The notes under the pieces: generated by a model
Database searches by the model: none
The model's input: the letters and a program-made list of their open reading frames with translations, nothing else
Told to the model about the DNA's origin: nothing
From: Actinomycetota bacterium
GTDB lineage: Bacteria; Actinomycetota; Actinomycetes; Actinomycetales; Microbacteriaceae
Reading direction: 5' to 3'
Length of the DNA: 41,396 nucleotides
Assembly (NCBI GenBank): GCA_020161315.1
Contig: JAIUOH010000029.1
Span: 1-41,396, forward strand
Shown here: positions 20,362 through 32,597 of the stretch, piece after piece
How the letters are laid out: the number at the start of each line of letters is the position of its first letter
Position numbering within the stretch: position 1 is the stretch's first letter
Translations under genes and position numbers: made by a program

Positions 20362-21785
20362 TTTACCCCGACCTCGAGTTGGAGATCCCAGAGGCACTGG
20401 GACGCGTGCACTTTGTGGGTATTGGCGGCTCGGGCATGAGCGGCATTGCTCGCATGATGCACGAGGCCGGGGTAACAGTGACCGGCTCAGACCGCAGTGC
20501 GAGCTACACCACCGAGGCGCTCGAAAAGCTGGGTGTGCGAGTCTCAATTGGGCATGACGCGGCAAACGTCGGCGAGGCAGATACTCTCGTGGTGACTGGG
20601 GCCCTCTGGCAAGACAACCCCGAATACCAATACGCGCTTGCGCACGGACTGCCGGTGCTGCACCGCTCGCACGCGCTCGCTTGGCTCGCGCGCAGGGGCC
20701 GTCTCGTCGCGGTGGCTGGCGCACACGGTAAGACAACTTCGACGGGCATGCTCGTGACCGGGCTCATGGGCGTCGGCGCAGACCCCTCGTTCGTGAACGG
20801 TGGCGTGATCGAATCGCTCGGTGTGAGCTCGGGTTCGGGTGCCGGTGAACTCTTTGTGATCGAGGCAGACGAAAGCGACAAGTCCTTCTTGCTGTACGAC
20901 ACCGCGGTGGCACTCGTCACCAACGTTGATCCAGAGCATCTCGACTTCTACGGCTCGCGCGAGGCATTCATGCAGGCCTTTGTCGACTTCTCGCTCGGCT
21001 CGCGCGAATTGCTCGTGATTTCCGCCGACGACCCGGGTACTCGTGAGGTGCTCGCAGCGCTCGCATCGTTGGGCGGCGAGGATCGCAAGATGCCAGCGAT
21101 TCGCACCTTCGGGGAGCACTCAGACGCCGACGTGCGCATCGTCGCAATCGATGACTCGGGCCCCGTGAGGTTCACCATCGAGATCGACGGAGCGCAGTTT
21201 GCTTCACGGCTTGAGGTGTATGGGCGGCACAACGCGGTCAACGCGGTTGGTGTGGTCGCGGTGCTGACCGGGCTCGGTTTCGAGCCAGAGGCTTCGCTTG
21301 CCGCCGTTTCTCAGTTCGGTGGCACGAAGCGCCGGTTCGAGTTTCACGCAGAGGTCGGCGGCGTTCGTGTCTACGATGACTATGCTCACCACCCGACCGA
21401 GGTGGCAGCGCTGCTCGACTCTGCCCGCGCTGTAGTCGGTGGGGGGCGTCTCATCGCGATTCATCAGCCGCACCTCTACAGCCGCACCTCGCTGTTTCAT
21501 CGTGAATTCGCCGAGGTGCTTGAGCGCGGTGCAGACCACACCGTGGTGCTCGAGGTCGATGGCGCGCGCGAAGACCCGGTTGAAGGCGTCACCGGTGCGC
21601 TCGTGTCGAACGACTTTGGTGACGCTTCAAAGGTTGCGTACGTTGACGACTGGCAGCGAGCGGCTGACTATCTTGCCGAGATTGCGAAACCGGGTGACGT
21701 CATGATTACCATGAGCTGCGGCACCGTGTACCGCATTATTCCGCAGGTGGTCGAGGCGCTACGCGGTCGTTTCGAGCGACCATGA
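20358..21785 (+). CDS. murC: UDP-N-acetylmuramate:L-alanine (or glycine) ligase MurC
   Basis: This 475-residue Mur ligase adds the first amino acid to UDP-MurNAc. Landmarks are [15 protein letters not shown] (20-34), the ATP loop [29 protein letters not shown] and [16 protein letters not shown]. In type B peptidoglycans the first residue is glycine rather than L-alanine. If the organism belongs to Microbacteriaceae this enzyme may use glycine, which the sequence alone does not prove. The start is ATG 20358 with AAGGAG at 20347-20352, overlapping the murG stop. It ends in an ATGA overlap with ftsQ. Confidence 0.96.
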
Positions 21786-27979: not shown

Positions 27980-30900
27980 GTGTCAGAAAAAGACGGTTTC
28001 GTTCATCTGCACGTACACAGCGAGTATTCGATGCTCGACGGGGCTGCGCGAGTGAGCCAGTTGATGGATGCGGTGCGCGACCAGGGCATGCCAGCGATCG
28101 CGGTCACCGACCACGGCAACACCTTTGGCGCCTTCGACTTCTGGAAGCAGGCGAAAGACCGCGGCATCAATCCGATTATTGGTATTGAGGCGTATCTCAC
28201 CCCGGGCACCTTCCGTGGTGATCGCTCGCGCGTGCGCTGGGGCGATGGCGGAGGCGACGATGTCTCGGGCGGCGGCGCGTACACGCACATGACGATGCTC
28301 TCTGAGACTACCGAGGGCATGCACAACCTGTTTCGGCTCTCGTCGCGTTCGAGCATCGAGGGGCAGTACTTCAAGCCTCGCGCCGACCGCGAGTTGCTGC
28401 ACCAGTACTCGAAAGGGATCATTGCCACGACGGGCTGCCCCTCTGGCGAGATTCACACTCGCCTGCGTCTCGGCCAGTACAAAGAGGCGCGCGAGGCGGC
28501 GGCCGAGTTTCAGAGCATCTTCGGCAAAGAGAACTTCTTCTGCGAGATCATGGATCACGGCCTCGAGATTGAGCGTCGGGTGCAGAAGGAGCTGCTGCAC
28601 CTCGCCCGCGAGCTGAACATTCCGCTGCTTGCCACAAACGACCTGCACTACACGCACCAGCACGACGCGAAGTCGCACGAGGCGCTGCTGTGCGTGCAAT
28701 CGGGCTCGCGCCTCGACGACCCCAACCGCTTCAAGTTCGACGGTGACGGCTACTACCTGAAGAGCGCCGCCGAGATGCGGCACCTGTTCCGCGAACTGCC
28801 GGAGGCCTGCGACAACACGCTCGAGATCGCCGAGCGCTGCAACGTCTCGTTCAACACCTCGGCGAACTACATGCCGCGCTATCCGGTTCCCGAGGGCGAG
28901 AGCGAAGACAGCTGGTTCGTGAAAGAGGTCGAAGCGGGCCTGCACTATCGCTACCCGCAGGGCATCCCCGATGCCGTGCGGAAGCAAGCGGAGTACGAGA
29001 TCGGCGTCATCGTGCAGATGGGCTTTCCCGGCTACTTTCTGGTGGTCGCCGACTTCATCAACTGGTCGAAGAACAACGGCATTCGTGTTGGCCCAGGGCG
29101 AGGATCGGGCGCAGGCTCAATGGTCGCCTATGCAATGCGCATCACCGACCTCGACCCGCTACAGCACGGCCTGATCTTCGAGCGCTTTCTGAACCCCGAT
29201 CGTGTTTCGATGCCCGACTTCGATGTCGACTTCGATGATCGCCGCCGTGGCGAGGTCATCAAGTATGTGACCGAGAAGTACGGCGACGAGCGCGTGGCAC
29301 AGATTGTGACCTACGGCACCATTAAGTCGAAGCAGGCGCTGAAAGACGCGTCGCGCGTGCTTGGGTTTCCGTTCGGTATGGGTGAGAAGCTCACGAAGGC
29401 GATGCCGCCAGCCGTTATGGCGAAAGATATTCCGCTCTCGGGCATCACCGACCCGAGCCACGCGCGCTACAAAGAGGCCGCAGAATTTCGGGCCGTGCTG
29501 CAAGAGGACCCGGATGCGAAGACCGTCTACGAGACCGCGCTCGGCCTCGAGGGGCTGAAGCGTCAGTGGGGCGTGCACGCCGCGGGTGTGATCATGTCGA
29601 GCGACCCGCTCATCGACATCATCCCGATCATGAAGCGCGAGCAAGACGGGCAGATCGTCACGCAGTTCGACTACCCGACCTGTGAGGGCCTCGGCCTCAT
29701 CAAGATGGACTTCTTGGGGCTTCGAAACCTCACGATCATCTCTGACGCGCTCGAAAACATCAGGCAGAACAAGGGCGTCGAGCTCGATCTTGAGCACCTC
29801 GAGCTTGACGACGTCGGCTCGTACGAGTTGCTCGCTCGTGGCGACACGCTCGGTGTCTTTCAGCTCGACGGTGGCCCCATGCGAGGCCTGCTGCGCCTCA
29901 TGAAGCCCGACAACTTCGAAGACATCTCGGCCGTGCTCGCGCTGTACCGCCCGGGCCCCATGGGCGCAGACTCGCACACGAACTACGCGTTGCGCAAGAA
30001 CGGCCTGCAGCCGATCACCCCGATTCACCCGCAGCTCGAAGAGCCGCTGCGCGAGATCCTTGACACCACCTACGGCCTCATCATCTACCAGGAGCAGGTG
30101 ATGTCGATCGCGCAGAAGGTGGCTGGCTTCTCGCTTGGCCAGGCAGACATTCTGCGCCGAGCGATGGGCAAGAAGAAGAAAGAAGAACTCGACAAGCAGT
30201 ACGAGGGCTTTGCCGGCGGCATGAAAGAGCGTGGCTTTTCTGAGGCGGCGATCAAGTCGCTCTGGGACATCCTGCTGCCGTTCTCTGACTACGCCTTCAA
30301 CAAAGCGCACTCGGCCGCCTACGGCCTCGTGAGCTACTGGACCGCATACCTGAAGGCTCACTACCCGGCCGAATACATGGCGGCGCTGCTCACAAGCGTC
30401 GGCGACTCGAAAGACAAGCTCGCGGTGTACCTCAACGAGTGCCGCCGCATGGGCATCAAGGTGTTGCCGCCCGCGGTGAACGACTCGTTCGCCGACTTCT
30501 CTGCCGTCGGCAGCGATATTCGCTTCGGCCTGGGCGCGGTGCGCAACGTGGGCACCCACGTGGTCGCCGGTATTCGTGAGGCCCGAGAGGCCAAGGGATC
30601 ATTCGAGAGCTTCAGCGACTTTCTCAAGAAAGTGCCGCTCACCGTGCTCAACAAGCGCACGATCGAATCACTCATCAAGGCAGGAGCCTTCGACGGGCTC
30701 GGCGGAACTCGCCGCGCGCTCGTCGAGATTCATGAGGCCTCGGTTGAAAGCTCGGTGAAAGAGAAGCGGGCCGAAGAGAACGGCGACGTCGGCTTCGACT
30801 TTGACAGCCTCTTCGCTGAGGCCGCAGAAGACGCCGGCGAGAGCGCCGATAGTGTCTCGATGGTGCCCGATCGCCCCGAGTGGACGAAGAAAGACAAGCT

Positions 30901-31522
30901 CGCATTTGAGCGCGAGATGCTCGGCCTCTACGTGTCTGATCACCCGCTGCGCGGGCTCGAGAATGCGCTCGCAAAAGAGTCGTCGTTCTCGGTCGAACAC
31001 CTGACCAACCCCGACAACAAGGTTGACGGGGAAACCGTGGTCGTTGCGGGCCTGCTTACCGGTGTGCAGCACCGCACCGCGAAGTCAGGCAACCTCTATG
31101 GGCAAGTCACGATCGAGGACTTCACGGGAGAGATCTCGGCGCTCTTCATGGGCAAGTCGTACCAGGAGTTCGGCTCGCTCTTGCAAGCAGACACGATCGT
31201 CGCGTTGCGTGGCAAGATTAACGTGCGCGACGACGGCGTTTCGATGCATGCCTACGGAGTAAAGCCCATCGATACCGGGGTGCAAGACGAGGCGACAACG
31301 CTGCCACTCACGATCTCGGAAAACCGGGCGACCGAAGACCTCATGGAAGAGCTGAAGCGCGTGTTCCAGCGGCACCCCGGTACCAGCGAGGTGCGGTTGC
31401 ACCTGCTGACCGCGACGGGGGTCAGGGTATTTGAGCTTCCGATCACGGTACGAGTGAACGCCGATCTGTACGGCGAGCTGAAGGGGCTGCTCGGGCCTCG
31501 CTGTCTGGTGGAAGTAGGCTAG
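27980..31522 (+). CDS. dnaE: DNA polymerase III alpha subunit DnaE
   Basis: This 1180-residue replicative polymerase (DnaE1 type) starts with the PHP domain (HLHVHSEYSMLDGA), a proofreading-related metal-binding domain in actinobacterial DnaE1. The polymerase catalytic core has GPGRGSGAGSMVAYAM and the aspartates of PDFDVDFDDRR (about 411-421), then the tau-binding and helix-hairpin-helix region. The OB domain begins near 1018 (VVVAGLLTGVQHRTAKSGN). The start is GTG 27980 with GAGAGG about 8 nt upstream. A TACCCT hexamer at 27939-27944 is a possible -10. The TAG stop (31520-31522) coincides with the edge of the inserted repeat element. Confidence 0.97.
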   Translation: MSEKDGFVHLHVHSEYSMLDGAARVSQLMDAVRDQGMPAIAVTDHGNTFGAFDFWKQAKDRGINPIIGIEAYLTPGTFRGDRSRVRWGDGGGDDVSGGGAYTHMTMLSETTEGMHNLFRLSSRSSIEGQYFKPRADRELLHQYSKGIIATTGCPSGEIHTRLRLGQYKEAREAAAEFQSIFGKENFFCEIMDHGLEIERRVQKELLHLARELNIPLLATNDLHYTHQHDAKSHEALLCVQSGSRLDDPNRFKFDGDGYYLKSAAEMRHLFRELPEACDNTLEIAERCNVSFNTSANYMPRYPVPEGESEDSWFVKEVEAGLHYRYPQGIPDAVRKQAEYEIGVIVQMGFPGYFLVVADFINWSKNNGIRVGPGRGSGAGSMVAYAMRITDLDPLQHGLIFERFLNPDRVSMPDFDVDFDDRRRGEVIKYVTEKYGDERVAQIVTYGTIKSKQALKDASRVLGFPFGMGEKLTKAMPPAVMAKDIPLSGITDPSHARYKEAAEFRAVLQEDPDAKTVYETALGLEGLKRQWGVHAAGVIMSSDPLIDIIPIMKREQDGQIVTQFDYPTCEGLGLIKMDFLGLRNLTIISDALENIRQNKGVELDLEHLELDDVGSYELLARGDTLGVFQLDGGPMRGLLRLMKPDNFEDISAVLALYRPGPMGADSHTNYALRKNGLQPITPIHPQLEEPLREILDTTYGLIIYQEQVMSIAQKVAGFSLGQADILRRAMGKKKKEELDKQYEGFAGGMKERGFSEAAIKSLWDILLPFSDYAFNKAHSAAYGLVSYWTAYLKAHYPAEYMAALLTSVGDSKDKLAVYLNECRRMGIKVLPPAVNDSFADFSAVGSDIRFGLGAVRNVGTHVVAGIREAREAKGSFESFSDFLKKVPLTVLNKRTIESLIKAGAFDGLGGTRRALVEIHEASVESSVKEKRAEENGDVGFDFDSLFAEAAEDAGESADSVSMVPDRPEWTKKDKLAFEREMLGLYVSDHPLRGLENALAKESSFSVEHLTNPDNKVDGETVVVAGLLTGVQHRTAKSGNLYGQVTIEDFTGEISALFMGKSYQEFGSLLQADTIVALRGKINVRDDGVSMHAYGVKPIDTGVQDEATTLPLTISENRATEDLMEELKRVFQRHPGTSEVRLHLLTATGVRVFELPITVRVNADLYGELKGLLGPRCLVEVG

Positions 31523-31683
31523 TGTCCCACACCCGAAATCCATTGCCAGTCCCGCGCGCCGAGACAGCGCCTCGCGGTGGCAAACTCGCTCGACTTGCCA
31601 CCGGTAAGCCTTCGCTCGCTTGCCTTGAGATGCACTATCTCTGCATGCGATTCTGCCAACGGATTTCCGGTGTGGGACACTAG
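31519..31683. mobile_element. MITE-like element with 23-bp terminal inverted repeats
   Basis: The ends 31519-31541 and 31661-31683 are inverted copies of each other at 22 of 23 positions, with core GTGTCCCACACC, and similarity continues a few bases inward. A TA dinucleotide borders each end (31520-31521, 31681-31682), as for TA-targeting transposons. Inside are hairpins: a 9-bp stem 31575-31583 with 31595-31603, and a 5-bp stem 31627-31631 with 31637-31641. It has no coding capacity. It fills nearly the whole dnaE-nadE gap and supplies the dnaE stop codon. Confidence 0.75.
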
Positions 31684-31688
31684 AGACC

Positions 31689-32597
31689 ATGCGCGAGATT
31701 CAGCAAAAGATCATCGCGGCGCTCGCCGCTGTGCCTGAGATCGATGTGCCGGCAGAAGTCGAGCGCAGGGTCAACTTTCTTACTGACTATGCTCGCAGCA
31801 TTCCGGGCGTGCGCGGCTTCGTGCTCGGCATTTCAGGTGGCCAGGACTCGTCGCTGGGGGGCCGCCTCGCGCAGCTCGCCGTTGAGCGCCTGCGGGCCGA
31901 GGGTCTGGAGGCCGAGTTCATCGCTGTGCGCTTGCCGTACTCGGTGCAGAACGACGAAGACGACGCCCAGATCGCACTCGACTTTATTTGCGCAGACCGT
32001 GAGGTGACGGTCAACATCGCGGCAGCCGTCGATTGTCTCGTAGCAGAGGTTGATCGTGGCACAGGGCAGCCGACCACCGACTTCAACAAGGGCAACGTAA
32101 AGGCGAGAATGCGCATGATTGCGCAGTACGCCATCGCAGGCGATCGCTCGATGCTCGTGCTCGGTACCGATCATGCGGCCGAGGCGATCACGGGGTTCTT
32201 CACCAAGTTCGGCGACGGTGCGGCCGACGTGATGCCACTCGCCGGGCTCACCAAGCGGCAGGGCGCCCAGATGTTGCAGCACCTGGGGGCGCCAGATCGT
32301 CTCTGGCAGAAAGTACCGACCGCTGATCTGCTCGACGGTGTGCCGGGGCAAAGCGACGAAGACAGCCTCGGTGTGAGCTACACCCAGATTGACGACTACC
32401 TGTCGGGCAAGGAAGTCGATGAGGCCGCGGCAGAGAATCTCGAGCGGCGCTATCGCGTCTCAGAACACAAGCGTCACCTGCCGGTGACGCCCACAGACAC
32501 CTGGTACGCTGCGGGCAGCATTGCGCCGAACACTGCAACGCACGCTACAGCGCAACCAGACAGCAACGGTTCAGATGAGGGAGCAGACACCGCATGA
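31689..32597 (+). CDS. nadE: Ammonia-dependent NAD synthetase
   Basis: This 302-residue enzyme converts nicotinate adenine dinucleotide to NAD using ATP and ammonia. The PP-loop SGGQDS is at 49-54, with downstream motifs [41 protein letters not shown] and [10 protein letters not shown]. There is no glutaminase domain, so it is the short form. A roughly 35-residue Thr/Ala/Ser-rich tail follows the conserved HKRHLPVTP. The ATG at 31689 begins 6 bases after the end of the MITE-like element. The stop overlaps msrA by ATGA. Confidence 0.95.

Follow-up and report, generated by a model that had tools for sequence, protein, structure and literature searches.

The 159-bp non-coding segment lying between dnaE and nadE in a Leucobacter genome is, with high confidence, a non-autonomous MITE of the IS630/Tc1 type that inserted at the CTAG over the dnaE stop codon, presumably into its TA, with displacement of a predicted promoter box of nadE. 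The window, by which we mean the whole 41,396-nucleotide stretch analyzed, is contig C18 of this 3.0-Mb, 74-contig genome (G000). We propose that insertion, presumably by cut and paste, would have involved a transposase acting in trans and not found in the genome assembly; that duplication of the TA would have remade the dnaE stop codon, with the outer G of the target going to the right junction; and that the ancestral CTAG would have held both this stop codon and the final T of a predicted -10 box, TAGGCT, in which case nadE transcripts starting from this box would have changed from leaderless to ones with a leader of about 160 nt, almost wholly hairpin. The features concerned, in window coordinates unless another contig is named, are as follows.

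27980..31522, forward strand: dnaE, DNA polymerase III subunit alpha, with its TAG stop at 31520-31522
31515..31520, forward strand: TAGGCT, predicted -10 box of an ancestral leaderless nadE promoter, intact at the left junction
31519..31522, no strand: left CTAG, whose TA (31520-31521) is one copy of the presumed target duplication, by comparison with the G007 empty site
31522..31680, forward strand: IS630-type MITE, 159 bp, a non-coding long imperfect hairpin (G...C), recognized by its copies, fold, and ends
31522..31541, forward strand: left terminal inverted repeat, 20 bp, of which 19 match the right repeat
31661..31680, reverse strand: right terminal inverted repeat
31676..31681, forward strand: GACACT, hexamer 7 nt before nadE, where a -10 box would lie; of TANNNT, the A and last T alone are retained; putative role
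31680..31683, no strand: right CTAG, whose TA (31681-31682) is the second target copy
31689..32597, forward strand: nadE, NAD(+) synthase, its ATG 5 nt past the right TAG
C3:39579-39743, opposite strand: own-genome copy, 165 bp, 86% identity
C72:60164-60328: own-genome copy, 165 bp, 70% identity

The element and its empty site

The sequence-only reading of the window described a 165-bp block at 31519-31683, which is present, with inverted arms of 55 nt (78% complementary) starting at both of its ends. The 23-bp terminal inverted repeat with 22 matches that it reported was counted correctly but takes in the CTA/TAG of the target; without target bases, the repeat is 20 bp with 19 matches. The TA flanks that it described lie at 31520-31521 and 31681-31682, and with the outer C and G the target reads CTAG. 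Its account of the stop codon also holds: the TAG of dnaE consists of the target TA plus the first G of the element and the reading frame is left whole; with the TA doubled within C-TA-G and the G supplied by the element, a TAG stop would stay TAG. The element is thus short, bounded by terminal inverted repeats and, judged from the open reading frame list only, non-coding; a minus-strand frame (31085-31690) in that list crosses it.

The folded strand forms a single long hairpin, the tip of which bears two small ones, and weaker complementarity runs throughout the element. Its folding energy is -88.3 kcal/mol, versus -48.4 +/- 4.1 for 200 shuffles (z of -9.8), and a fold so far below that of shuffled sequence, together with full-length copies elsewhere, places the existence of the block beyond chance.

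The element-free junction that had been predicted from the window is found in G007, the closest relative by nadE, whose DnaE is 97.5% identical over the C-terminal 120 amino acids and likewise stops at GGC-TAG. Its junction is GTAGG-CTAG-AAGTC-ATG; in alignment, G007 has GTGGAAGTAGG-CTAG-AAGTC-ATG and the window has GTGGAAGTAGG-CTAG-157 bp-CTAG-AGACC-ATG. Both dnaE and nadE are presumably essential genes. Matches to nadE were present in 52 of 54 genomes (51 besides the window's own, which has one match), and the best 30 loci provided 29 relatives (L054 to L082). The end of dnaE lies upstream of nadE in 28 of the 29, within 160 bp in 27 and at 633 bp in L066, with no dnaE match in L072. By blastn, the element occurs in none of these 29 nadE loci.

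Copies, hairpin, and relationship to IS630 transposons

Besides the window's copy, the genome holds two further full-length copies, on C3 and C72 (three in total), and one 165-bp copy each was found in L. massiliensis (G029) and L. weissii (G044), both genomes agreeing over 400 bp with sequence records of these species and thereby placing the host in Leucobacter. These five copies diverge from one another by up to 30%, yet each measures 165 bp from CTAG to CTAG. Used as a query against 100 genomes, the element matched four (G000, G029, G044, and G078), that in G078 being 25 bases long in a genome of another family. The pattern CTAGTGTC-N130-160-GACACTAG occurs in 4 of the 54 genomes of the genus (seven places in G009, two in G000, and one each in G029 and G044), and the reversed control pattern occurs at one place across all 54. 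In G009, another Leucobacter, there is a sister family of 14 complete copies of 167-168 bp, with CTAG targets and ends of the same kind and a mean pairwise identity of 95.5% (range, 87.5 to 99.4%); these 14, and five partial copies, were counted with one diverged end allowed (loci L045, L047 to L052, and L113 to L124). As is characteristic of a MITE, there are several copies at unrelated sites and an empty site. The gene neighboring the C72 copy was also found in G007 (71% identity), and no element lies in the 300 bases around the end of that gene in G007, where the flanks are too diverged for a clean empty site.

Beyond these genomes, a phage search with the window element gave no match, and a plasmid search gave five short, weak matches, two of which fall on the ends of Streptomyces IS630 transposase genes. 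A G009 copy gave partial matches in 14 plasmid records, the best (5e-7 over 46%) in Streptomyces. The middle of this copy is 80-81% identical over 38-46% to Streptomyces plasmids (H49 to H52) at places with no listed gene; these may be remoter members of the sister family. Two further element ends were also observed. A second element end, CTAGTTTCCGGTGCGGAACACTAG, lies immediately to the right of the C3 copy (L002 1662-1685) and is perhaps the remnant of an earlier nested or adjacent insertion; and in G009, near position 2483 of L118, the stop codon of a small gene, similar by eye to RelE/ParE-type toxin genes, is followed by a partial element end. Among the literature matches listed, from a coverage that leaves out most subscription papers, no title deals with these Leucobacter elements.

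The strength of the fold could also be read as that of a fixed regulatory RNA belonging to the dnaE-nadE junction (a leader, attenuator, or processing hairpin). Paired changes point the same way: across five copies, 18 of 63 pairs have changed on both sides, versus 8.4 in shuffled and 0 to 5 in slid controls, and they include some well inside the element, beyond the terminal repeats. This covariation is suggestive, however, the count being made on five sequences with a structure drawn from one of them, and matched arms would also be expected if a transposase binds both ends or if palindromes are corrected during replication. The covariation may reflect either palindrome correction or a constraint on the hairpin, and we do not take it as evidence of RNA function. 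The sequence-only reading had held that a lack of further copies or related transposon ends, with the block conserved at this site in distant relatives, would speak for such an RNA; instead, copies exist elsewhere, the 29 nadE loci are without the element, and no Rfam family matches 31200-32000 at E values of up to 1. A junction-specific RNA is very improbable, the empty site and the copies elsewhere having largely refuted it.

A transcription terminator after dnaE, which had also been raised as an option, would suit a strong, GC-rich hairpin that directly follows a stop codon, as well as the 11 of 19 complete copies that sit at stop codons. But no T-run follows the hairpin, a scan of 31300-31900 for intrinsic terminators found none in the element (its single site being on the opposite strand, inside nadE), and the position is explained by the CTAG target, such that we consider a terminator very unlikely.

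We class the element as an IS630-type MITE because its ends resemble those of actinobacterial IS630-family transposons, and TA as the duplicated target is consistent with this family. The IS630-type end sequence is GTGTCCYGCRCC; the terminal motif was present in 4 of 398 genomes of the bacterial family searched, G000 included. One such locus, L128, is a 1133-bp element with the motif at both ends and a 368-codon open reading frame, whose transposase has DDE_3 and HTH_32 domains and is 78% identical to that of L131, from a Leucobacter. Both transposases, the two that were scanned, are assigned to IS630 by NCBIfam NF033545 (256.8 and 262.7 bits; cut-off, 100). Seven plasmid loci, from Rhodococcus, Corynebacterium, and Streptomyces, were drawn from the 40 matches listed, among 2105 records, in a tblastn search with the L128 transposase; six are annotated as IS630, and L140 is without annotation. 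The motif scan covered 11 transposase loci (L128, L131, the seven plasmid loci, L132, and L135, with the weak transposase matches L133 and L134 lying outside it); nine of them carry the motif at each end with no more than one mismatch, and it is missing at L132 and L135, both more distant Leucobacter loci. Two further pattern matches, L129 and L130, have a single exact end each, and no transposase was recognized by eye in their open reading frame lists.

Over their first 24 nt, the two ends of the window element match the 18 ends of the nine IS630 elements at means of 15.1 and 16.4 positions; at 20,606 internal positions, the means are 6.1 and 6.3 and no score is above 14 and 15, respectively. 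Of the 18 ends, 13 and 14 score above these maxima; the ends of L138 and L141 match at 11-14 of 24, no better than the best internal positions. The nine boundaries were placed using the motif (at most one mismatch), so that part of the agreement over the initial dozen bases is built in, but the presence of the motif on both sides of transposase genes chosen by protein similarity is not. C-TA precedes 17 of the 18 ends, the exception being the left end of L139 (GA). In six of the nine (L128, L131, L136, L137, L139, and L142), the transposase frame has no internal stop within the element, runs to the junction, and ends on its TAG, which is completed by the target; the frame of L140 is open at the junction for 272 codons, and those of L138 and L141 stop earlier.

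The element therefore has ends in common with autonomous transposons, ends that are similar, not identical, and no autonomous IS630 with the exact end variant of the window element was found among the loci examined. Nor was an IS630 transposase found in the window's own genome, whose 74-contig assembly may miss repeats; a PF13358 search of five genomes gave none in G000 and two in G009, the longer of which has no matching pair of ends. The element is either an orphan in its own genome or has its partner in an unassembled repeat.

An IS481 origin, which the TGT ends and CTAG had initially suggested, was rejected on the IS630 end pattern and on five PF00665 loci without CTAGTGTC ends. More broadly, the element could be a MITE from a different family that targets CTAG (IS5/IS427 or IS481 type), with duplication of all four bases, as might be suggested by the near constancy of the outer C and G and by the use of CTAG by IS870 and MITEPsy1, the latter being described as doing so (PMC3189936). 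The ends, however, resemble those of IS630-family transposons, and the five loci of the window's own genome with an rve domain (PF00665) are without CTAGTGTC ends in a scan for the exact motif over about 1.5 kb on either side where the contig allows; we regard this origin as extremely improbable. Transposons that share the terminal sequence, and further copies (two more in the genome and related ones in relatives), are both what the sequence-only reading had proposed to look for, and the copies, the empty site, and the shared ends all argue for the mobile element that it described.

CTAG targets, stop codons, and the predicted nadE promoter box

In 27 of the 29 Leucobacter relatives, the aligned nadE start is preceded at 5-7 nt by TANNNT, mostly within GAGTAGGGTGG, versus a mean of 0.38 and a maximum of 3 in 2000 mononucleotide shuffles of the upstream regions. 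It is absent in two relatives; L077, which lacks a start codon at the aligned position, is counted as a miss. A TANNNT some 12 bp ahead of the start codon has been described as a mark of actinobacterial leaderless genes (PMC3160421), and the mapped -10 motif of Mycobacterium tuberculosis is given as TANNNT (PMC3898074). From this spacing, nadE looks leaderless in 27 of the 29 relatives examined.

In G007, the box is TAGGCT-7 nt-ATG, its last T being the T of CTAG. The insertion fell on this box (TAGGC-TA-G), and the copy of the TA preserved it 161 bp further from nadE, such that the distance from TAGGCT to the nadE ATG, formerly 7 nt, is now 168 nt. Transcripts of nadE probably begin at the left edge of the element and would then carry the hairpin; a weak nadE start at the right junction, or read-through from dnaE, is possible. 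A scan for E. coli-type sigma-70 promoters found none in 31300-31900. The copy in L. massiliensis (L034 1501-1690) has a right junction of CTAGACT-CGTGCTC-ATG, which puts TAGACT 7 nt before an ATG and may be another target that overlaps a -10 box, the gene start there being uncertain (the gene caller chose a GTG 6 nt before that ATG).

A role for the element in the nadE leader is plausible from this arrangement. The hairpin might have been co-opted as a leader that tunes NAD synthesis or as a site of RNase III processing of a dnaE-nadE transcript, as would fit the intact left -10 box, the closeness of the hairpin to the nadE start, and the RNase III targets that have been proposed for Correia/NEMIS MITEs of Neisseria (PMC2229807). 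Folding a leader from 31527 leaves the start-codon T and G largely paired (0.09 and 0.01 unpaired, versus 0.77 and 0.71 when leaderless) and positions -4 to -1 paired, but the same fold keeps nine bases open at -13 to -5; there is also no sign of selection at the site, and the element may be neutral. Co-option is, on balance, doubtful.

The target itself can be examined across the 19 complete copies, which exclude partial ones (five in G009 and one in G047). A TA is present on both sides in 18 of the 19, the exception being CTGG, and the outer C and G are nearly constant. Duplication of TA and duplication of CTAG are distinguishable in one copy only, which favors TA. The copy at 259543 in G009 has CTAG on its left and CTAA on its right, and the stop of the gene there is now TAG; this favors a stop that was formerly TAA, as duplication of TA within a CTAA target would predict, the alternative being that the right end mutated later.

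CTAG is about fivefold rarer than mononucleotide expectation, with 250 occurrences versus 1366 expected in G009 (397 kb) and 264 versus 1401 in G000 (421 kb); the window has 18, two of them at the ends of the element, versus 64 in dinucleotide shuffles. Background CTAGs fall on stop codons in 41 of 250 cases in G009 and 49 of 264 in G000 (pooled, 90 of 514). By comparison, 11 of the 19 complete copies are on stop codons, with four intergenic and four in called genes, an enrichment (Fisher P of about 1e-4) that is also seen in G009 alone (8 of 14 versus 41 of 250; P = 1e-3) and with coding sites set aside (11 of 15 versus 90 of 317; P = 6e-4). Coding sites were fewer, at 4 of 19 versus 197 of 514, a difference that is not significant (P = 0.15). 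These P values come from small numbers and a home-made gene caller, and the enrichment had been noticed on several copies before counting; selection against harmful insertions may contribute to it.

We tentatively offer a broader reading, which we consider speculative: that CTAG, being rare in these high-GC genomes and often placed on TAG stops and perhaps on TAGNNT boxes, steers IS630 MITEs to gene borders, where duplication of the TA would remake both signals, and that nadE has in this way become hairpin-led, possibly with consequences for the control of NAD synthesis. Target choice would then be tied, countably, to gene signals, the stop codon and the end of the predicted box sharing four bases and both surviving insertion. 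If true, the insertion would represent a natural switch in the mode of nadE translation, in what is presumably an essential gene, and the window species and G007 form a natural with/without pair for comparing leaderless and structured-leader expression of nadE.

Comparison with known systems

The kind of element is already known; the informative aspect of this case is that one CTAG lies on a stop codon as well as on the predicted -10 box of a leaderless promoter. With the IS630 family (Tc1/mariner superfamily, including ISY100 and the Shigella IS630), the element has in common the TA target and ends like those of nine actinobacterial members, but it is without a transposase gene and shares with them the ends alone. 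The CTAG preference of IS630 was reportedly noted by Tenzen and Ohtsubo in 1991.

Two short elements, compared here by description, are the closest in kind. RUP of Streptococcus pneumoniae is given as a 107-bp element with 108 copies per genome, proposed to be moved by IS630-Spn1 (PMC2229807). Like RUP, the window element is short and non-coding, with IS630-like ends and a TA target; unlike RUP, it has a different length, and three copies were found in its own genome, as opposed to 108. The Correia/NEMIS elements of Neisseria, hairpin MITEs of about 107 or 155 bp with TA ends and proposed RNase III processing (PMC2229807), resemble it as short hairpin MITEs with TA at their ends, RNase III processing being proposed for Correia/NEMIS and hypothetical here.

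In its relation to stop codons, the element is most usefully set beside IS870, in which the target site likewise completes a stop codon. IS870 is of the IS5 type, and it is said (Fournier, in 1993) to depend on CTAG as its target for completing the stop of its own open reading frame. In the present case, the stops that the MITE remakes belong to host genes, and a frame ending on the junction TAG is instead a feature of the related IS630 transposases.
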